From: Cyanosarcina radialis HA8281-LM2
GTDB lineage: Bacteria > Cyanobacteriota > Cyanobacteriia > Cyanobacteriales > CCAP-1448
Direction: 5' to 3'
DNA: 64,000 nucleotides
Assembly (NCBI GenBank): GCA_019359615.1
Contig: JAHHHA010000012.1
Coordinates: 1-64,000 of the forward strand
Shown: one piece after another, positions 44,060-53,950 of the stretch
Layout: each line of letters begins with the position of its first letter
How positions within the stretch are numbered: position 1 is the first letter of the stretch
Position numbers and translations under genes: made by a program
Notes under the pieces: model-generated
Seen by the model: the letters and a program-made list of their open reading frames with translations, nothing else
Told to the model about the DNA's origin: nothing
Database searches by the model: none

Positions 44060-44347
44060 ATGTCGCCAATAACCCTAAATCAAAAGATTTCAGTTCCCGA
44101 AGACGTGCTGGTACAAGTGCTTGATGGGGAATCAGTGCTGCTGAACCTGCAAAACGAGCAGTATTATGGCTTGGATGATATCGGCACCAGAATGTGGGAA
44201 GTGCTGGCAGAAAGCCAATCGATCGAGGAAGCATATCGAGTATTATTAGCTGAATATCAGGTGGAACCAGAGCAGTTACGCCAAGATTTACAGGTCTTGC
44301 TCGAAAAATTGGTAGAACATGGGTTGGTCGAACTTAGTAATCCGTAA
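44060..44347 (+). CDS. Lasso peptide biosynthesis B1 protein (PqqD-like leader recognition)
   Basis: This 95-residue PqqD/RRE-fold protein (VLVQVLDGESVLLNLQNEQYYGLDDIGTRMWEVL...VLLEKLVEHGLVEL) binds the leader of a ribosomally made precursor peptide and presents it to the processing enzymes. It overlaps the B2 gene by 29 bases. Split B1/B2 proteins are typical of lasso clusters outside the microcin J25 group. It opens the cluster, which has no other gene in the 240 bases upstream. Confidence 0.92.
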   Translation: MSPITLNQKISVPEDVLVQVLDGESVLLNLQNEQYYGLDDIGTRMWEVLAESQSIEEAYRVLLAEYQVEPEQLRQDLQVLLEKLVEHGLVELSNP

Positions 44348-44846
44348 AGGATATAGCTTTTGGCAATTGCCGGGGAGCGATCGCCTATTATTGGTCCAAG
44401 CTTTGCTATTAATCCCCTTAGTAGCTATATCCCTCAAAGTTTTGGGATTTCAACGCACCCAAAGCCTTCTAACTCGCCTTGCCCCTCCATCGATCGCCGC
44501 TAGCCCAGATGTCGAGCGCTTTCCTCAAATTCGGACGACAGCCCGCATGGTGAAGATCGCCGTGCGGTATAACTCCCCGTGGAACAACTGCCTGAAACAG
44601 TCTTTGGTGCTGTGGTGGCTGTTGCGCCGCCAAGGAATCGATAGCGAATTGCGGATCGGTGTCAAACAAGCAGGGGGCAAGTTGGAAGCCCATGCTTGGG
44701 TAGAATACGACGGCCAGGTGTTGAACGATTCTTCAGACGTGCGATCGCGGTTTACCATGTTCGATCGAGCGATCGAGGTCATTAACAAGTCAAAAGTCAA
44801 CGCTTCGACAAGCTCAGCGTCCAGTCAAAAGTCAAAAGCTGTTTAA
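44319..44846 (+). CDS. Lasso peptide biosynthesis B2 protein (transglutaminase-like protease)
   Basis: This 175-residue enzyme cleaves the leader from the lasso precursor. The catalytic triad matches McjB: C91 (NNCLKQSLVLWWLLRRQGI), H125 (AHAWVEYDG) and D137 (12 residues after the His, as in McjB). An N-terminal hydrophobic segment at about 22-42 is usual. The last ~18 residues (from about 157) are encoded by small repeats (GTCAAAA and CGCTTCGACAAGCTCAGCG), so the C-terminal tail is probably a late addition. Confidence 0.92.
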   Translation: MGWSNLVIRKGYSFWQLPGSDRLLLVQALLLIPLVAISLKVLGFQRTQSLLTRLAPPSIAASPDVERFPQIRTTARMVKIAVRYNSPWNNCLKQSLVLWWLLRRQGIDSELRIGVKQAGGKLEAHAWVEYDGQVLNDSSDVRSRFTMFDRAIEVINKSKVNASTSSASSQKSKAV

Positions 44847-44920
44847 AAGGAGGAAGCTTGCACTCCCACCGAAAACTTTTCCCTTAAACAGGGAGGTTTG
44901 TACCAACTTGGCTTCGATTT

Positions 44921-46909
44921 ATGAGTGGAATTGTCGGCATTATTAACTTAGACGGAAGACCTGTCGATCGCGAATTATTGGCGCGGTTGACCGCTTTTAT
45001 GACTTTTCGCGGCCCCGATGCCCAAAGCATTTGGATCGATGGCGATCGCGGCGCTAGTGGTTTGACCTCACCCCCAGCCGACCTCTCCCCCTTCGGCAAG
45101 CTCAGGGCAGCGCCCGGCCCCTCTCCTTGCACGAGAGGGGAGAGTCTTGTCCCCCCCTTCCCTTGCAGGGAAGGGGGGCTAGGGGGGTTAGGTCATATCG
45201 GCTTCGGTCATACCCTACTGGAAACAACTTTTGAATCGGCTTGGGAACATCAACCCTGTAGTCTAGATGGTGAGGTCTGGATTACTGCTGATGCCCGCAT
45301 AGACGGACGTGCCGACTTAATTGCCAAATTGTCGATCGCCGGGGATGCGTCAGAGAAAGTCACAGATGTAGAACTGATTCTCCATGCTTATCGGGTTTGG
45401 GGCGCAGACTGCGTAGAACATCTCATTGGAGATTTTGCTTTTGCGATTTGGGACGGACGCAAACAACAGTTATTTTGCGCCCGCGACCAACTTGGCATCA
45501 AGCAGTTTTACTACGCCCAAGTCGGCAATACTCTGTTATTTAGCAATACCCTAAACTGCTTGCGACTGCATCCAGCGGTGTCCGATCGACTCAACGATCG
45601 CGCCATCGCCGATTTTCTCTTATTTGACTACAATTACCACCTCGATACCACTTTTGCCGATATTAAGCGTTTGCCTGCGGGGCACACTCTCATCTATTCC
45701 GATGCCGGCGTGCGCTGTCAGCGTTACTGGACTTTACCCGTTAAAGAACCCATTCGCTACCAAAAGGCAGAAGACTATGTAGAAAACTTCAAAGAGATCT
45801 TCTCTTTGGCAGTAAGCGATCGCTTGCGTCAAGAAAAAGTTGCCATCTGGATGAGTGGCGGGCTAGATTCCACTAGTATTGCAGCTACAGCCCTAGAGTT
45901 AAAAGCGCAAAAATCTCTGCCTTTAGATCTGCAAGCTTTCTGCACCGTCTACGATCGCCTGATTCCCGATCGAGAACGCTATTACTCAGGCATAGCGGCT
46001 GAAGCTTTAGGCATTCCGATTCACTACACCGTAGGAGACGACTATCAACTCTTCGAGCGCTGGGATACACCAGAACTGCGTCGTCCCGAACCCACTCACA
46101 ATCCGATATTAGCTACTGCTGTCGATAAATCCCAGCAGGTAGCAGCCCACAGTCGGGTGGTGCTATACGGGCAAGGAGCAGATGAAGTCTTATATCCGTC
46201 TAAAATTGCGGACATCTGCAAAACTATGCCCTTCAACTACCTAATCGCCGATATCGGCGATTGTCTCTTTACCCATCGGATACGCCCTCCCATTGGAATT
46301 GGAGTGAAAGCGCTTTGGCAAAGATGGCTCGATCGGATGCGCCAAGAGACTAATTTACCTTTACTCCCAGCTTGGCTGAATGAATCCTTTGCCCAGCGGC
46401 TGAATTTACGCGAACGCTGGCAACAGATAATGGAAGACGAACCACCTTTAATTCATCCTTCTCATCCCAAAGGCTATGAAAGAGCGATCGCTCCAATCTG
46501 GGCATCGGTTTTTGAACGCTCAGATCCAGGCGTGACCGGGATGCCCCAGGAAGTAAGACTGCCATTTCTCGACCTGCGCTTAATCGATTACGTGCTGGCT
46601 ATTCCTCCCTGGCCTTGGTGCATCCAAAAAGAAATGTTACGAACAGCCATGGAGGGGAAGTTACCAGAAGTTATCTGCCGTCGTCCTAAGACTCCGTTGG
46701 CGGGCGATCCTGTCAGTGTCTTGCTATCTCAAAGCAGTAGTAAGTGGCAAGAATTAGCGGCTACTCCAGAATTATGCGAGTATGTGACGCTCGACTCAGC
46801 TTGGAGAGATGCGATCGCCTGTAAGGGTCGATCTTGGGCGGCTTGGTCGGCTTTGCGCCCCCACAGTCTCAATTACTGGTTAAAATCGGCTCGAAATCTT
46901 TCCTGTTAG
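44921..46909 (+). CDS. Lasso cyclase (asparagine synthase-like, C protein)
   Basis: This 662-residue enzyme activates an Asp or Glu side chain with ATP and joins it to the N-terminus of the core peptide. The N-terminal amidotransferase domain starts MSGIVGI, so the catalytic Cys2 of asparagine synthetase is Ser and no glutaminase is expected. The PPi loop is SGGLDST at 312-318. Residues 48-91 (Pro/Gly-rich, LTSPPADLSPFG...) are an in-frame repeat insert absent from normal members of the family. The context (B1, B2, precursor, exporter) argues for cyclase and against a housekeeping asparagine synthetase. Confidence 0.9.
   Translation: MSGIVGIINLDGRPVDRELLARLTAFMTFRGPDAQSIWIDGDRGASGLTSPPADLSPFGKLRAAPGPSPCTRGESLVPPFPCREGGLGGLGHIGFGHTLLETTFESAWEHQPCSLDGEVWITADARIDGRADLIAKLSIAGDASEKVTDVELILHAYRVWGADCVEHLIGDFAFAIWDGRKQQLFCARDQLGIKQFYYAQVGNTLLFSNTLNCLRLHPAVSDRLNDRAIADFLLFDYNYHLDTTFADIKRLPAGHTLIYSDAGVRCQRYWTLPVKEPIRYQKAEDYVENFKEIFSLAVSDRLRQEKVAIWMSGGLDSTSIAATALELKAQKSLPLDLQAFCTVYDRLIPDRERYYSGIAAEALGIPIHYTVGDDYQLFERWDTPELRRPEPTHNPILATAVDKSQQVAAHSRVVLYGQGADEVLYPSKIADICKTMPFNYLIADIGDCLFTHRIRPPIGIGVKALWQRWLDRMRQETNLPLLPAWLNESFAQRLNLRERWQQIMEDEPPLIHPSHPKGYERAIAPIWASVFERSDPGVTGMPQEVRLPFLDLRLIDYVLAIPPWPWCIQKEMLRTAMEGKLPEVICRRPKTPLAGDPVSVLLSQSSSKWQELAATPELCEYVTLDSAWRDAIACKGRSWAAWSALRPHSLNYWLKSARNLSC
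45062..45193. repeat. Mosaic repeat inserted in frame in the cyclase gene
   Basis: CCTCACCCCCAGCCGACCTC, CCCTTCGGCAAGCTCAGGG, CCCCTCTCC...GGAGAGG around TTGCACGA and CCTTCCCTTGCAGGGAAGG are stacked hairpin-forming units that occur between genes elsewhere in the window (23464, 29360, 63219). Here they encode residues 48-91 with no stop codon. Confidence 0.85.
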
Positions 46910-46983
46910 ATAAACTCGCTCTCTGCTGACATAATTCTATAAGTAAGCTATAATCCTGTAGTTGCTCTATGAGGAGTAGAATC

Positions 46984-47133
46984 ATGTCCGACAATATACC
47001 AAAGCCTACAAGCAAGCCATATCATGCGCCAAATTTTACCGTCTACGGTAGCGTTAGCGAACTCACTAATAACATAGGTGCGGCGGGTAAGGTTGCTGAT
47101 GGCGGCGTAGCACCTACCGACAAAACAGCTTAA
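46984..47133 (+). CDS. Lasso precursor peptide (49 aa)
   Basis: ATG 46984 follows GAGGAG by seven bases. The leader region YHAPNFTVYGSVSELT (residues 13-28) fits the lasso leader rule Y-x2-P-x-(L/F)-x3-G-x5-T recognised by B1 proteins, with Y13, P16, F18, G22 and T28. The segment NNIGAAGKVADGG and tail VAPTDKTA follow. If the core starts at G32, D39 is at position 8, a normal ring size; a cut right after T28-N29 would place D39 at position 10, which is unusual. The gene sits between the cyclase and the kinase genes. Its small size explains why it is easily missed. Confidence 0.85.
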   Translation: MSDNIPKPTSKPYHAPNFTVYGSVSELTNNIGAAGKVADGGVAPTDKTA

Positions 47134-47594
47134 TAATCTAGGTACTTTTAGACGATCGGCGATCGCTTAAGCTGTCTAAACCACCGACGGCGATCGCTTA
47201 CCCTAACATTAGTTCGAGATAAGGCAATTAATGGCAGCGTTCGGAGTTCGGCTTGTCCCAAACTCGGTTTGCGCTGGCTAAAAAAGTTAATCTCATCGCT
47301 AGAGCCTTGCATCGATCGAAAATTACGTCGAAACCCCACCTATAGCGATCGCCGTTCCTTACTCTTGGCTAACGCAATTGCCTTAGCTGTAACTTCAATT
47401 CAACCATCTCTTGCAGGAACAACATTTTAGGCTAGACGCGCCACGTCTGAGTCGCGTTAGTCATAACAAATCGATCGAAGCAAAACTTATCAGTTTTTAA
47501 CGATCGGGAATCTAGTGGCAGCGGACAAAGTGCGATATATCTGATAAGTGTTTTGCGATACGTGCTACGCACTAGTCAACGCGCCACCATTTTT
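47134..47594. other. Gap between precursor and kinase genes
   Basis: About 460 bases. TTTAGAC (47147) can pair with GTCTAAA (47174) around a HIP1-containing loop, a possible attenuator after the precursor gene. A frame open from 47152 to TAG 47428-47430 lacks an ATG. From TTG 47269 it would encode 53 residues with a basic start and a hydrophobic stretch (RRSLLLANAIALAVTSI). I regard it as a possible remnant or small gene, not a confirmed one. Confidence 0.4.
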
Positions 47595-48590
47595 ATGTCA
47601 TTTACTTATTCAGTTTTTGGGTTAAGGCTAGATTCTAACTGCGCCATTCCAGGATTAGTCGGGTTAGCAACTACAACTAGCCCAGAGGTAAAAGTTTGGT
47701 TCGATGTCGTTCCCCCGTGGCTGGAAAAACTGCTGAACGCACCCCAGGAAAGCTGGTATGATAGCCCATTCCGAGGGGAGTATGGCGAACCGCTCCTGCG
47801 AACTTGGAAACTAGCTGACGATCGGCACTTGCGACTGTTGTATCGCGATGGTACTCAATTCGTCGTCGATCTACAAGGTACTGAAATTTGGGCTACTTGG
47901 CCGGATAATCTCACCTTAGAAGATACTGCCACTTATCTTCTGGGCCCGGTTTTAGGATTTGTGTTGCGCTTGCGGGGAGTGACGTGCTTGCACGCCAGCG
48001 CGGTGGTAGTAGAAAATCGGGCGATCGCTTTATTAGGCGTGGCTGGTGCGGGGAAATCTACGACAGCGGCGGCTTTTGCCAAAATGGGCGATCCGGTACT
48101 ATCTGACGATGTAGTGGCGCTAGTAGATGAAGGCAATAGCTTTCTCGTACAGCCTGCTTACCCTCGTATCCGCCTGTGGTCGAAGTCAGTAGATACTCTG
48201 TATAATGCCCCAGATGCCCTACCTCGCATCGTTCCGACTCATCCAACTTGGGATAAGCGCTATCTCGATTTAACTCAAAAAGGATATTATTTCCAACAGC
48301 AGCCTCTACCCCTAGCTGCGATTTACGTTTTGTCAGAACGGTGCGATCGCCCAGATGCACCTTTAGTAGAGCAGATGACAGCCCATACTAAGTTAATGAC
48401 TTTAGTAGCTAACACTTACACCAACTATTTATTAGATAAATCTAGGCGGGCGCAGGAATTTGAGGTCTTGCAACGGCTTTTGCTTCGCGTTCCCATTCAA
48501 CGGCTGATTCCTCATAGCGATCCAGTTTATTTACCCAAGCTTTGCGAGACAATTATTACCGATTTTCAGAGTTTGAATTTTTGTTATTAG
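47595..48590 (+). CDS. HPr-kinase-like protein of the lasso cluster
   Basis: In this 331-residue protein the C-terminal half is a HprK/P-like P-loop kinase fold: LHASAVVVENRAIALLG, then G148-V-A-G-A-G-K-S-T156, and the acidic DDVVAL. The N-terminal half is less conserved. Similar kinases in Bacillus/Paenibacillus lasso clusters phosphorylate a residue at the C-terminus of the peptide. Here the precursor ends TDKTA, so T45 or T48 would be the candidates; this is inference. I chose ATG 47595 over a TTG at 47553. It is 11 bases from the methyltransferase gene. Confidence 0.87.
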   Translation: MSFTYSVFGLRLDSNCAIPGLVGLATTTSPEVKVWFDVVPPWLEKLLNAPQESWYDSPFRGEYGEPLLRTWKLADDRHLRLLYRDGTQFVVDLQGTEIWATWPDNLTLEDTATYLLGPVLGFVLRLRGVTCLHASAVVVENRAIALLGVAGAGKSTTAAAFAKMGDPVLSDDVVALVDEGNSFLVQPAYPRIRLWSKSVDTLYNAPDALPRIVPTHPTWDKRYLDLTQKGYYFQQQPLPLAAIYVLSERCDRPDAPLVEQMTAHTKLMTLVANTYTNYLLDKSRRAQEFEVLQRLLLRVPIQRLIPHSDPVYLPKLCETIITDFQSLNFCY

Positions 48591-48601
48591 AACGATCGAA
48601 G

Positions 48602-49573
48602 ATGACAAAGACCTATAGTATCTCTGGTTATGGCAAAATGATTGCCGATCGCGATCGCATGGATGCTTACGTTCGGGCGTTGCAGCAAGCCGTAAAACCT
48701 GGTTGTGTAGTTTTAGATATCGGTACGGGGACGGGAATTTTTGCCCTGCTAGCCTGCAAATTTGGAGCTAGGAGAGTATACGCGATCGAGCCTAGCGATG
48801 CAATCCAGGTGGGGAAAGAAACGGCGGCGGCTAACGGTTATAGCGATCGCATTGAGTTTATTCAAGACTTATCTACCAAAATTAGCCTTCCAGAACTGGC
48901 TGATGTCATTATCTCGGATCTGCGGGGCATTCTGCCGTGCTTTCAACACCATATCCCCGCCATTAAAGATGCCCGATGTCGTCTCTTAGCGCCCGGTGGA
49001 GTACCGATCCCTCAAAGCGATACCTTATGGGCCACAGTAGTCTCAGCCCCAGAGTTGTATGCCAAACACAGCAGCATTTGGGATAGCAAGCCCTATGGTT
49101 TCGATATGCAGGCTGCCAAGCAGCGAGAAATTAATACTTGGGGTAAGGGCAATGTCACGCCAGAGCAATTCCTCACCGAACCGCGATCGTGGGCAACTTT
49201 AGATTACACCACGATCGAAAATCCTAATATCAAAGCCGAGTTAACTTGGAATGTCGATCGAACTGGCATCGCCCACGGCATTAGCGTCTGGTTTGATGCT
49301 ACTCTAGCTCCTGGTATTTACTTTTCTAATGCTCCTGGAAAACCCGAATTAGTCTATGGTAGAGCCTTTTTTCCCTTATCCGATCCGATCGACTTAGAAC
49401 CTGGCGATACGATATCTATTACCTTGCAAGCAAACCTGGTAGTTGATGACTACGTTTGGAGTTGGAAAACCCGCGCGATCGATAAGTCAGGAAAAATCAA
49501 AGCCAACTTCCGGCAATCTACCTTTTTCGGTACGCCCATCTCGCCAGAGCATTTGCGGAAATTAGTGGCTTAA
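48602..49573 (+). CDS. PRMT-like class I methyltransferase of the lasso cluster
   Basis: This 323-residue protein opens MTKTYSISGYGKMIADRDRMDAYVRAL, the dimer/helix start seen in protein arginine methyltransferases. SAM motif I is DIGTGTG at 39-45, and the acidic loop is YAIEPSD. VIISDLRGILPCFQHHIPAIKDARCRLLAPGGVPIPQ lacks the double-E loop of true PRMTs, so the acceptor may not be arginine. Only nine bases separate it from the exporter gene. Methylation of the lasso peptide is the natural hypothesis, but an unrelated substrate is possible. Confidence 0.87.
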   Translation: MTKTYSISGYGKMIADRDRMDAYVRALQQAVKPGCVVLDIGTGTGIFALLACKFGARRVYAIEPSDAIQVGKETAAANGYSDRIEFIQDLSTKISLPELADVIISDLRGILPCFQHHIPAIKDARCRLLAPGGVPIPQSDTLWATVVSAPELYAKHSSIWDSKPYGFDMQAAKQREINTWGKGNVTPEQFLTEPRSWATLDYTTIENPNIKAELTWNVDRTGIAHGISVWFDATLAPGIYFSNAPGKPELVYGRAFFPLSDPIDLEPGDTISITLQANLVVDDYVWSWKTRAIDKSGKIKANFRQSTFFGTPISPEHLRKLVA

Positions 49574-49582
49574 GGTGCTGGT

Positions 49583-51382
49583 TTGAAACATCGAGTCCAG
49601 ATCTGGCAAAATTTGCGACGGGCGATAGAATTAGTCTGGCGCAGCGCCCCTGGGTGGACTGTTATCAGTTTGCTGCTGTTGATAGTTCAAGGTTTTTTGC
49701 CTCTGGTATCTCTCTATCTGATGAAACTGCTAGTCGATGGCGTGACAGCCGGGATAGCAGCCACCGACAAAGCCGCAGCTTTCAGAGAGGTATTTTGGCT
49801 GGTGATTATAGCTGGAGGAGTTACCTTATTAGGCGATTTATGTCGCGCTTGGGCGACATTTGCTAGCACCGCTCAATCGGAACTAGTGAAAGATTACGTT
49901 CACGATCTACTACACGCCAAGTCAATTGAAGTCGATCTTGAATATTACGAAAACGCCCAATATTACAACTCCCTGCACCTCGCTCAACAAGAAGCCTCCT
50001 ATCGTCCTCCCCAAATTCTTTTGAGTTTGGTGCAAGTGGCGCAAAACGGAATTTCCTTGTTAGCCATAGCGGGACTACTGTTTGCACTTCACTGGGCGAT
50101 TGCTTCGATCTTATTTGTGGCTGTAATTCCTGGGTTGTTAGCGCGACTGAAATATACGGGTAAATTCTTCCACCGTCAAAGAGGTTGGACTCACAAAGAG
50201 CGCATTGCTTATTACTTTCATGGGTTGCTAACCCACGACACTTATGCCAAAGAATTGCGATTGTTTGACTTAGGTTCGCTATTTCGATCGCGGTTTCAAA
50301 ATTTACGCGGGCAAATCCGCCAAGAAAAACTCTCTTTAGCCAAGCAACGTTCGATTACCGAGTTAATCGGTCAAGCTAGCGGTACGATCGCGGTATTTGT
50401 CGCTTGTGGGTTTATTTCTTTCCAAACCTTGGCAGGAGCCATCACCTTGGGAGGGTTGGTAATGTATTATCAAGCCTTTCAACGCGGCCAGGGATTTTTG
50501 CGAGAACTGCTGCTGAATGTGGTGACTCTGTATGAAAATAGCTTATTTCTGTCTAATCTCTACGAATTTCTGGATTTAGAACCTGCCGTTCCCGAACCTT
50601 TACACCCTCAAGCCGTTCCCCAACCTGTAAAATTTGGCATTGAGTTCCACCAAGTCGAGTTTCGCTACCCCAAGAGCGAACGGGAACTGCTCTCAGACAT
50701 CAACTTGACGATTAAAGCTGGCGAAACTGTCGCTTTAGTAGGGGAAAATGGGGCAGGAAAAACCACTTTGATCAAACTTTTGTGTCGGCTTTACGACCCT
50801 TCTAGCGGCAAAATTACTATAGATGGCATCGATCTACGCCACTTCAAGACTACAGACTGGCGGCGAGAAATTAGCGTCGTCTTTCAAGATTACGTGCGCT
50901 ACAATCTGACAGCGCAGGAGAATATTGGTTTGGGCAATCTTGAGATGTTGACCGATCGCGATCGCATTATAGCCGCAGCCGAACAAGCTGGAGCCGATCG
51001 AGCGATTTCCAAGCTTCCCTACCGCTATGACACCACTTTGGGGAAGCAGTTTGAACAGGGTGAAGAACTAAGCATCGGGGAATGGCAAAAGGTAGCTATA
51101 GCCAGAGCCTTTTTACGCCAAGCTCAAATTATTATCTTAGACGAGCCAACTAGTGCTTTAGATGCCAAATCTGAATACGAAGTGTTCGATCGATTTCGTC
51201 AACTGACGCAAGGGCGAACTGCAATTTTAATTAGCCATCGGCTGTCAACAGTCAGGTTAGCCGATCGCATTTTGGTGTTAAAAAATGGCAAGATCGTTGA
51301 AAATGGCTCTCACGATGAACTATTAAAGCAAGGTGGTACTTATGCTCGCTTATTTAAAATTCAGGCTCAATATTACGAATGA
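49583..51382 (+). CDS. ABC exporter, fused permease-ATPase (lasso D protein)
   Basis: This 599-residue half-transporter has six membrane helices (about 20-300), then an ATPase with Walker A GENGAGKTT, signature LSIGEWQ and Walker B IIILDEPTSALD. McjD-type exporters have this layout and confer export and self-protection. The start is TTG 49583 with AAGGTG ahead; I found no ATG nearby in frame. It is in a tight row with the kinase and methyltransferase genes. Confidence 0.92.
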   Translation: MKHRVQIWQNLRRAIELVWRSAPGWTVISLLLLIVQGFLPLVSLYLMKLLVDGVTAGIAATDKAAAFREVFWLVIIAGGVTLLGDLCRAWATFASTAQSELVKDYVHDLLHAKSIEVDLEYYENAQYYNSLHLAQQEASYRPPQILLSLVQVAQNGISLLAIAGLLFALHWAIASILFVAVIPGLLARLKYTGKFFHRQRGWTHKERIAYYFHGLLTHDTYAKELRLFDLGSLFRSRFQNLRGQIRQEKLSLAKQRSITELIGQASGTIAVFVACGFISFQTLAGAITLGGLVMYYQAFQRGQGFLRELLLNVVTLYENSLFLSNLYEFLDLEPAVPEPLHPQAVPQPVKFGIEFHQVEFRYPKSERELLSDINLTIKAGETVALVGENGAGKTTLIKLLCRLYDPSSGKITIDGIDLRHFKTTDWRREISVVFQDYVRYNLTAQENIGLGNLEMLTDRDRIIAAAEQAGADRAISKLPYRYDTTLGKQFEQGEELSIGEWQKVAIARAFLRQAQIIILDEPTSALDAKSEYEVFDRFRQLTQGRTAILISHRLSTVRLADRILVLKNGKIVENGSHDELLKQGGTYARLFKIQAQYYE

Positions 51383-51417
51383 GGAGTTCAGAATGCAGGA
51401 GTTCAGGAGTTCAGAAT
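51383..51417. repeat. AGGAGTTCAG tandem repeat supplying the ribosome site of the next gene
   Basis: GAGGAGTTCAGAATGCAGGAG is followed by TTCAGGAGTTCAGA, directly against the ATG at 51416. The same AGGAGTTCAG unit occurs at 6999-7029, 30515 and 36045. Here it appears to provide the Shine-Dalgarno sequence. Confidence 0.7.
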
Positions 51418-52594
51418 GACTGAAATTGCCGCTGAGAAACATCAGCTAGAAATGGAATTGCTGCTGTGTTGCGCCCGCACTGAAATCGATCGTCAATGCC
51501 GCGATCGCATTCAGCATATAGCGCAGCAAAATATTGATTGGGATTACTTGTTAAAACTTACTGCATGGCATCAAGTTACTCCTTTGTTATTCTGGCAATT
51601 GCAAAACACTCGTGCAGAAATTATTCCTCAAAAGGTGCTAGAAGAACTTCGCAGTGCCTCTAAGGCTAATGCCAAGAGAAATTTTGGGCTGACTGGGGAA
51701 TTGCTAAATCTTCTCCGGCTTTTCGACAAAAATGCTATTCCGATAATGCCGTTTAAAGGACCGGCTCTAGCAGAAGTCGCTTACAAAAACTCAACGCTGA
51801 GAGAATTCTTGGATTTAGATATTTTAATTCCAGCAGAATTCGTTCCTCAAGCTAGGAAACTACTAATTTCTCAAGGATATGAACCTCAGTTCGATCTAGC
51901 AGATACTCAGGAATTGATTTATACTAAACTGCGTCACGAGCATATGTTTTGGCACGAAGGCAAACAAATTGCGCTCGACGTTCATTGGTCTTTATTTCCT
52001 TTAAACTTCTCTTTTTCTGACGATCAAAATCTCACCTGGAAACACCAAACTAAAATTCAATTGAGTGGCAAATCGGTTGAAACTCTATCGGCTGAGAGTT
52101 TACTTTTATTTCTTTGTTTTCACGGTTGCAAGCATAATTGGTCGCGGTTAAAGTCGATTTGCGACTTAGCCGAACTGATTCGCAGCCAACCAGAAATCGA
52201 TTGGAATTGGATTTTATCGGAAGCCCAGAGACTAGGAATCGAGCGGATGCTGCTGCTAGGTCTTTATTTATGCCAGCATCTGCTCGACACACCACTTCCA
52301 GATCTACTCGATCGACAAGTAGAATCTAATTTACCAATTAAATCTTTGGCATCTGAAGTAGAACGACTGCTTTTTATAGTGCCAGAGCGAGCCGATAGCT
52401 TGCCAAAAAACAATATTTACTTAAAAACTATGGAATCTGGCAAAGACAAAATTTGGTATTATTTCAATCTCATATTTACTCCCACCCCTTTGGAATGGCA
52501 AATAATTCCTCTGCCAAAGTGGTTATTTCCCCTGTATTATCTGATTCGACCGATTCGCCTGACAATTAAACACAGTCTAGGACATGAGTTATAG
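51416..52594 (+). CDS. Nucleotidyltransferase family protein (PF14907 type)
   Basis: This 392-residue protein has the core pattern MPFKGPALAEVAYKNSTLREFLDLDILIP, in which the LDLDI acidic pair would bind metal-nucleotide. It is followed by HEHMFWHEGKQIALDVHWSL and FLCFHGCKHNWSRLKSICDLAELI. This matches the uncharacterised nucleotidyltransferase family found beside lasso and other peptide clusters. Its reaction is not known. It is 33 bases from the exporter gene and overlaps the convergent flavoprotein gene by six bases. Confidence 0.85.
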   Translation: MTEIAAEKHQLEMELLLCCARTEIDRQCRDRIQHIAQQNIDWDYLLKLTAWHQVTPLLFWQLQNTRAEIIPQKVLEELRSASKANAKRNFGLTGELLNLLRLFDKNAIPIMPFKGPALAEVAYKNSTLREFLDLDILIPAEFVPQARKLLISQGYEPQFDLADTQELIYTKLRHEHMFWHEGKQIALDVHWSLFPLNFSFSDDQNLTWKHQTKIQLSGKSVETLSAESLLLFLCFHGCKHNWSRLKSICDLAELIRSQPEIDWNWILSEAQRLGIERMLLLGLYLCQHLLDTPLPDLLDRQVESNLPIKSLASEVERLLFIVPERADSLPKNNIYLKTMESGKDKIWYYFNLIFTPTPLEWQIIPLPKWLFPLYYLIRPIRLTIKHSLGHEL

Positions 52595-53950
52595 CGAGAC
52601 GATCGCCGATCGATCGGATTCTATCTCTAAATCTTGTAAGAATTTATAGCGATCGAACGCGCAATCTTGCCCTAAGAAATACACGATCTTTTCCGCATCG
52701 CATTCAGCATTTTGCAAGCAGGTGGAAGCACCTGGAGAAGGAGTGATATTAAATAAGATACGATCTCCAATAATTTTGGCTTCTCCTAAATCGAGAGTTT
52801 TGGTTTTTAAATTAACTATTTGAGGTCTAATGCCTCCATAGCCTTTAGCAAATTTTAGCTGCTTAAATTTGATGCTAGGAACAATTTTTCGCACTTCTTG
52901 CAGAAATAAGGCTTTCCCGATCGCCGGAATATCGTAAACTAAATTTCTTAACATATATCTCCAGATAGCTGGATCGGAAAGGATTTTAAAGAAGCTTTGA
53001 AAGGCTGCTAAACTCAAGCCAGCAGTTTGAAAATATTCCGCAACAGTAGCGTAATTACCTCTCTCTAGCATCAAGATGGCTTTAGCTGTAGGACCGAATC
53101 TAGTTTGAGAGCGATCGCGAACTTCCGGATCGCCATGAATAGCGGCAAAAGGTATTTTTTTGAGTTGCATGGTATAAACTTTACCGTTTAAAACTCCAGG
53201 TGCCAGATAAAAGTTGCCAGCAACGCTCAACAAGGCAAAATCTTTTCCGTATCCCAAAGATTTTGCTAGCAATAAACTATGAGCGCCAGCCATAACTGCC
53301 ACTACCTTAGCTGCGATCGCTTCTCCTTCGGTTTCAATGTGGTATATATCTCCATCTTTTTCGATCTTCTTGACCTTTGTGCCCATCATCAAGTCAATAG
53401 TTTTTTCTGGCTGCGATCGCGATTGCTCCAAAAATAATTCTGAAAGCTTCTGAAAGTCGATCGTATAACCTTCATCGGTGAATAAGGCATTCACATCTTC
53501 ACCCGGATCTCTGCCTGTTAAAATATTGGGTTCGATCGCTTGAATTTCTTCTCTTTCGATTAACTTTAACTTAGGAAATAGTTGTTTGAATTGTTGATAT
53601 CTATTTCTTAATTCTTCAGTTTCTTCTCGACCTACAGCCAACACCATTTTATTGTATTTGCTGTAGCTCTGCTGTTGCAGGTCATTTTTCAATAAAAAGT
53701 TTCGCACCATAGAGGCAGCCCGATCGACCTTCTCAGCTTTTTCTAAAGTGTAGTTAGTTTCTATATCGCCAAAATGAAGGGTTTGGCTATTGCTATTTTT
53801 ATGAGAATTAACCAGCGCTACTTCTCGATTTTTTTCAATTAAAACTATTTTATTGATATTGGTATAATTGCTCAATGTATATAATAAACTAGTGCCAGAA
53901 ATCCCCGCTCCGACAATCGCCACATCGTATTTTTTTATTTCTGATGACAT
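52589..53950 (-). CDS. FAD-dependent oxidoreductase, malate:quinone oxidoreductase-like
   Basis: In this 453-residue protein the FAD-binding motif GAGISG lies at 14-19 (YDVAIVGAGISGTSLLYTL). The C-terminal NITPSPGASTCLQNAE stretch is characteristic of Mqo. True Mqo is slightly longer, and some core segments here are diverged, so it may oxidise a different hydroxyacid. It converges with the lasso nucleotidyltransferase gene; a functional link to the cluster is not implied. Confidence 0.82.
   Translation of the reverse strand: MSSEIKKYDVAIVGAGISGTSLLYTLSNYTNINKIVLIEKNREVALVNSHKNSNSQTLHFGDIETNYTLEKAEKVDRAASMVRNFLLKNDLQQQSYSKYNKMVLAVGREETEELRNRYQQFKQLFPKLKLIEREEIQAIEPNILTGRDPGEDVNALFTDEGYTIDFQKLSELFLEQSRSQPEKTIDLMMGTKVKKIEKDGDIYHIETEGEAIAAKVVAVMAGAHSLLLAKSLGYGKDFALLSVAGNFYLAPGVLNGKVYTMQLKKIPFAAIHGDPEVRDRSQTRFGPTAKAILMLERGNYATVAEYFQTAGLSLAAFQSFFKILSDPAIWRYMLRNLVYDIPAIGKALFLQEVRKIVPSIKFKQLKFAKGYGGIRPQIVNLKTKTLDLGEAKIIGDRILFNITPSPGASTCLQNAECDAEKIVYFLGQDCAFDRYKFLQDLEIESDRSAIVSL

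Follow-up and report, generated by a model that had tools for sequence, protein, structure and literature searches.

The window analysed here, a 64,000-nucleotide stretch of DNA from Cyanosarcina radialis HA8281-LM2, almost certainly carries a lasso peptide biosynthetic gene cluster, which appears from its genes to be complete and of a class II type (positions 44060-52594). The cluster is real and ordinary in its gene order, and a PRMT-like tailoring enzyme together with a conserved motif near the end of the precursor suggests a new form of tail decoration. Sequence comparisons support the gene identities, the leader register of the precursor, the catalytic motif of the kinase, the PRMT fold without arginine-binding motifs, and the K-T/S tail.

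Eight genes, designated B1, B2, C, A, K, M, D and N, are all located on the plus strand. B1 (44060..44347) codes for a PqqD-type RiPP recognition element predicted to bind the leader (PF05402, E=1.6e-16), although its score of 66 bits against the lasso PqqD model NF033536 is below the cut-off of 80. B2 (44319..44846) codes for a transglutaminase-like leader peptidase that matches NF033537 (lasso_biosyn_B2) with 100.5 bits, above the cut-off of 33. Its only cysteine is C91, its only histidine is H125, and the Asp-137 region is present. C (44921..46909) codes for an Asn-synthetase-like macrolactam cyclase that matches NF033535 (lass_lactam_cya) with E=1e-107, yet falls under the strict cut-off of the model. 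Its Ser2 and SGGLDST ATP loop are both conserved in relatives, with which it shares at most 56% identity. The nearest relatives of the cyclase, along with a search within the phylum, indicate a cyanobacterial origin. Next is A (46984..47133), which codes for a 49-residue precursor weakly matched by NF033528 (lasso_cyano; E=6.7e-5, 22.8 bits, below the cut-off of 33). K (47595..48590) appears to code for an HPr-kinase-like precursor kinase and M (48602..49573) for a PRMT-fold methyltransferase with altered substrate-binding motifs, whereas D (49583..51382) codes for an MsbA-like ABC exporter (PF00005, E=4e-37). The product of N (51416..52594) resembles nucleotidyltransferases (NTP_transf_5; PF14907, E=4e-71) and is likened to PsmN and BsfN by its functional label. 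Thus, gene calls and family matches bear out the proposal of an earlier note that eight genes run in one direction over this interval, and the motifs it named in B1, B2 and C are indeed present. Downstream, a gene for a FAD-dependent oxidoreductase (Mqo/L-2-hydroxyglutarate oxidase-like) is found on the minus strand at 52592-53950, convergent with N and slightly overlapping its end.

Because B1, C and A all score below strict cut-offs, the precursor needed independent support. Related loci were collected from the surroundings of 80 related cyclases and from searches with M and C in cyanobacteria, acidobacteria, Rokubacteria and Chloroflexi. Nearly all of these loci carry, in a short ORF between C and K, the leader pattern Y..P.L...G.(aliphatic)..(L/I)T. 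A short ORF by itself would make a weak call, but 44 precursors, including that of the window, have a single leader register and are nearly always sited between C and K, which secures the assignment. The window leader is of the YxxPxL type and retains Y-17, P-14 and T-2, with F-12 replacing L-12. The experimentally studied leader of BsfA has Tyr at -17, Pro at -14, a variable residue at -12 and Ile at -2 (PMC10368454), and its Y(-17)/P(-14)/x(-12) spacing is the same as that in the window and its relatives, where Thr rather than Ile occupies -2. This equal spacing leads us to read the precursor as leader MSDNIPKPTSKPYHAPNFTVYGSVSELTN followed by the predicted core NIGAAGKVADGGVAPTDKTA. The claim that the cluster is a complete one is thus supported by family matches, related precursors and conserved synteny. 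The same note had considered that homologues of B1, B2 and C might always accompany another precursor type, which is not what was found among the relatives.

A sigma-70-like promoter sequence, CTGACA-17-TATAAT, lies directly upstream of A (46926..46954, plus strand) and matches 11 of 12 positions of the consensus, by which match alone it is recognized. We rejected a dedicated promoter as a conserved feature, since the related loci showed no such sequence ahead of A. A search downstream of A for a terminator or structured RNA gave nothing beyond chance, and plasmid copies of A or M were not found.

The pseudomycoidin (psm) and Bradymonas bsf clusters resemble the window cluster in C, K, N, the precursor and its YxxPxL leader, and bsf also in its split B1 and B2 genes. 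However, no PRMT-like methyltransferase is mentioned for either system (PMC9266682, PMC10368454), whereas the window cluster includes M.

Library matches to the K protein are weak and HprK-related (TIGR04352, E=3.5e-9, below cut-off), but it contains a catalytic motif of H-21aa-K-17aa-DD plus GxxGxGKS whose spacing is identical to that of BsfK. The catalytic residues of BsfK are H148, K169 and D186-D187, and the same motif is listed for other lasso kinases (PMC10368454). PadeK, ThcoK, SyanK and PsmK phosphorylate a C-terminal Ser (PMC9266682), BsfK phosphorylates Ser3 (PMC10368454), and tail phosphorylation or glycosylation has been reported for PadeK, PsmK and PsmN (PMC9266682). K is likened by sequence to the HPr-kinase homologues of the paeninodin, ThcoK and SyanK systems, which act on the precursor tail. 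The acceptor in those systems is the C-terminal Ser, whereas the window core ends in K18-T19-A20, so that the penultimate Thr19 is followed by Ala20 and no acceptor of the PadeK type is present.

Related cores point to the K-T/S pair instead, in contrast with the C-terminal Ser used by PsmK and the Ser3 used by BsfK. Among 23 cores assigned to clusters with M (M+), two of them indirectly (for L134, M is elsewhere in the genome; for L136, the cluster probably spans more than one contig), 21 have K-T/S followed by zero to four residues at the end, and eight terminate in K-T, K-S or R-T. Among the eight C-terminal residues, the broader pattern [KR][TS] is present in 22/23 M+ cores and in 15/21 cores from clusters without M (M-), compared with 5.1 and 4.6, respectively, expected from shuffled tails. 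The motif is also found without M and is therefore tied more to K than to M. Thus, the K-T/S motif is likely the kinase site and possibly the site of M as well, and T19 is the likely phosphorylation site in the window core. That known lasso kinases, with their C-terminal Ser or Ser3 acceptors, do not act on a penultimate Thr counts against this scheme. With this conserved tail, two tailoring enzymes could be tested directly at a single site.

The M protein is matched by PRMT_C and PrmA in profile libraries, and the match to PRMT2 covers the greater part of it (E=6.6e-28). The AlphaFold structure predicted for M (mean pLDDT 89.7) aligns with PRMTs at a TM score of about 0.8 (Foldseek), so that M has the same whole-length fold as the eukaryotic enzymes PRMT2, PRMT1 and CARM1. 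In contrast to those enzymes, the double-E loop (SEWMG...E) is changed throughout the M family to SD[LI]RGxLP...Q/other, which places Asp and Gln or another residue at the two Glu positions, and the THW loop is lost, with [LI]YG in its place. The Met and Arg of the PRMT N-terminal helix motif are retained in most members. The window precursor contains no Arg, nor do 19/23 M+ cores. With both the double-E and THW motifs and a substrate arginine absent, we rejected M as an ordinary arginine methyltransferase. In the literature searched, no description of a PRMT-type methyltransferase from lasso clusters was found, and viral contigs yielded a single match to M, partial and weak. A PRMT fold whose arginine-binding motifs have been replaced, and whose substrates are mostly free of Arg, is a lead to new peptide methylation chemistry.

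Since the precursor has no arginine to methylate, we favour Lys18 of the tail, which M perhaps methylates. Clusters with M prefer Lys, the ratio of Lys to Arg before T/S being 21:1 with M and 8:7 without it (Fisher p=0.004), but correcting for relatedness removes the significance (p=0.25 in a sign test on 3 independent pairs). The nearest sisters differ in the same direction: L034 (no M) has NRT where L134 has NKT, and L033 (no M) has NRT where L026 and L029 have NKS and GKT. With only three independent pairs, we regard the association as a lead and not as proof. L134 itself has an NKTN tail and a lasso cluster without M; an orphan M gene is located between unrelated genes in the same genome (L133:5796-6737), and its product might act in trans on the L134 peptide.

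There is a nearly even chance, if slightly the lesser one, that M acts elsewhere, on the C-terminal carboxylate, an Asp of the ring or tail, the phosphate, or the Thr. Lassomycin/StspM and lihuanodin/LihM likewise pair a lasso cluster with a SAM-dependent methyltransferase, and these enzymes use the C-terminal carboxylate (StspM) or Asp (LihM) (PMC9266682, PMC13352647). StspM is an O-methyltransferase and LihM belongs to the PIMT family, whereas M has a PRMT fold. Moreover, its active-site loop differs from those of PRMTs, so homology does not reveal the acceptor. However, the C-terminal residue varies among M+ cores (A, Q, T, G, D or N) while K-T/S is near-constant, which, together with the preference for Lys, argues for Lys18.

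The tails of M+ cores also carry few bulky residues. F, W, Y, H and R are all absent from 16/23 M+ tails but from 0/16 tails in similar clusters without M. This contrast is partly circular, since the M- group was selected by its tail motif and R-T tails are among its members, and independent pairs are uninformative and not significant. The scarcity of bulky residues hints that the plug might be the modified K-T pair. Because the window tail has no aromatic residue, the modified K18 and T19 may serve as the steric plug that holds the thread.

Under the T(-2) register, the first residue of the window core is Asn and the Asp falls at position 10. A ring of ten residues starting with Asn is outside the natural range of 7-9 residues reported to date (PMC9266682, PMC10368454), which counts against the main scheme. 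A plausible, though rather doubtful, alternative is that B2 cuts one residue later, leaving Thr at -3 and giving a nine-residue Ile2-Asp10 ring, or that the core starts at Gly3 with an eight-residue ring. The reported natural sizes favour this later cleavage, as does the presence of Asp at position 9 in most cores of the related set; the window Asp would take position 9 only after cleavage one residue downstream. However, the relatives' precursors follow a common Y(-17)/T(-2) register, whose Y(-17)/P(-14) part matches the characterised BsfA leader. In this register, 7/23 M+ cores (the window and six others) have Asp at 10 and begin with a small or polar residue; in the wider set, position 1 is highly mixed (G, A, T, I, N, S, Q, V, K, R and others). 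In addition, fusilassin enzymes accept engineered rings of 7-10 residues (PMC13352647). We retain Asn1 and Asp10 as the predicted ring partners, and such a core would test the accepted limit of 7-9.

In the pathway we propose, B1 would bind the leader via Y-17, P-14 and F-12, and K would phosphorylate T19 in the tail sequence K18-T19-A20. N may then attach a sugar to the phosphate, as PsmN reportedly does, and M would methylate the tail, with Lys18 the most likely acceptor. B2 is predicted to cleave after Thr(-2)-Asn(-1), C to link Asn1 to Asp10, and D to export the product. Judged from the sequences, the most likely product is NIGAAGKVADGGVAPTDKTA with an N1-D10 ring, phosphorylated and perhaps glycosylated at T19, and perhaps methylated at K18. 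Those parts of the chemistry that we infer are the two modification sites (of the kinase and of the methyltransferase), the attached sugar, the ring of ten residues and the role of the tail as a plug. Taken whole, the lasso cluster with tail modification by K, N and M and the Asn1-Asp10 ring is somewhat favoured, and the tail-modification scheme is graded below the assignment as a lasso cluster. It is unlikely, but worth considering, that the cluster represents a widespread undescribed branch in which a repurposed PRMT-fold enzyme methylates Lys beside phosphothreonine, modifications rather than bulky side chains form the plug, and some natural rings, that of the window included, have ten residues and start with Asn.

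Repeats within the cluster raise the question of decay. The C gene contains 150 bp of dispersed repeat in frame (45047..45196, plus strand), coding for about 50 residues (about 43-92, with boundaries uncertain by a few residues) that are absent from all 13 aligned relatives. The 6.5-Mb genome has 43 full or partial copies, including the one in C, and another copy (L004/L153) likewise lies within a long open frame. Also, the C-terminal 16 or so residues of B2 (VNASTSSASSQKSKAV) derive from repeat-like DNA at 44790-44846 (TCAAAAG repeats, CTTCGACAAGCTCAGCG). A cyclase with such an insertion could be impaired, but it is quite improbable that the repeat has inactivated the pathway, because no reading frame is interrupted. 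The inserted residues keep the frame and are predicted to form a disordered stretch where a hairpin of the glutaminase-like domain turns (pLDDT<50 for residues 43-89, flanked by strands 34-39 and 92-99), while most of the catalytic domain and of the rest of the protein is confidently modelled. C probably keeps its function.

Textbook lasso clusters place the precursor gene first. The precursor-first order of those clusters differs from the order here, from which the earlier note had concluded that the arrangement is unusual, but a new architecture marked by this order is scarcely credible and is ruled out by conserved synteny, as B1-B2-C-A-K(-M)(-D)(-N) is the common layout of the related loci in several phyla and the precursor follows the cyclase in nearly all of them.

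Two other Asn-synthetase loci in the host genome were examined for a second lasso cluster, and neither B1/B2 nor a precursor was found. One Asn-synthetase-like gene, at L181:5733-8438 (G000:C32), adjoins an HprK-like gene, with no B1, B2 or precursor detected. Among the related cyanobacterial loci, L063-L075 and similar loci encode lasso precursors with long tails whose cores begin with Val, Ile, Gln, Phe or Tyr, and clusters in Moorena carry up to five or more lasso precursors each.
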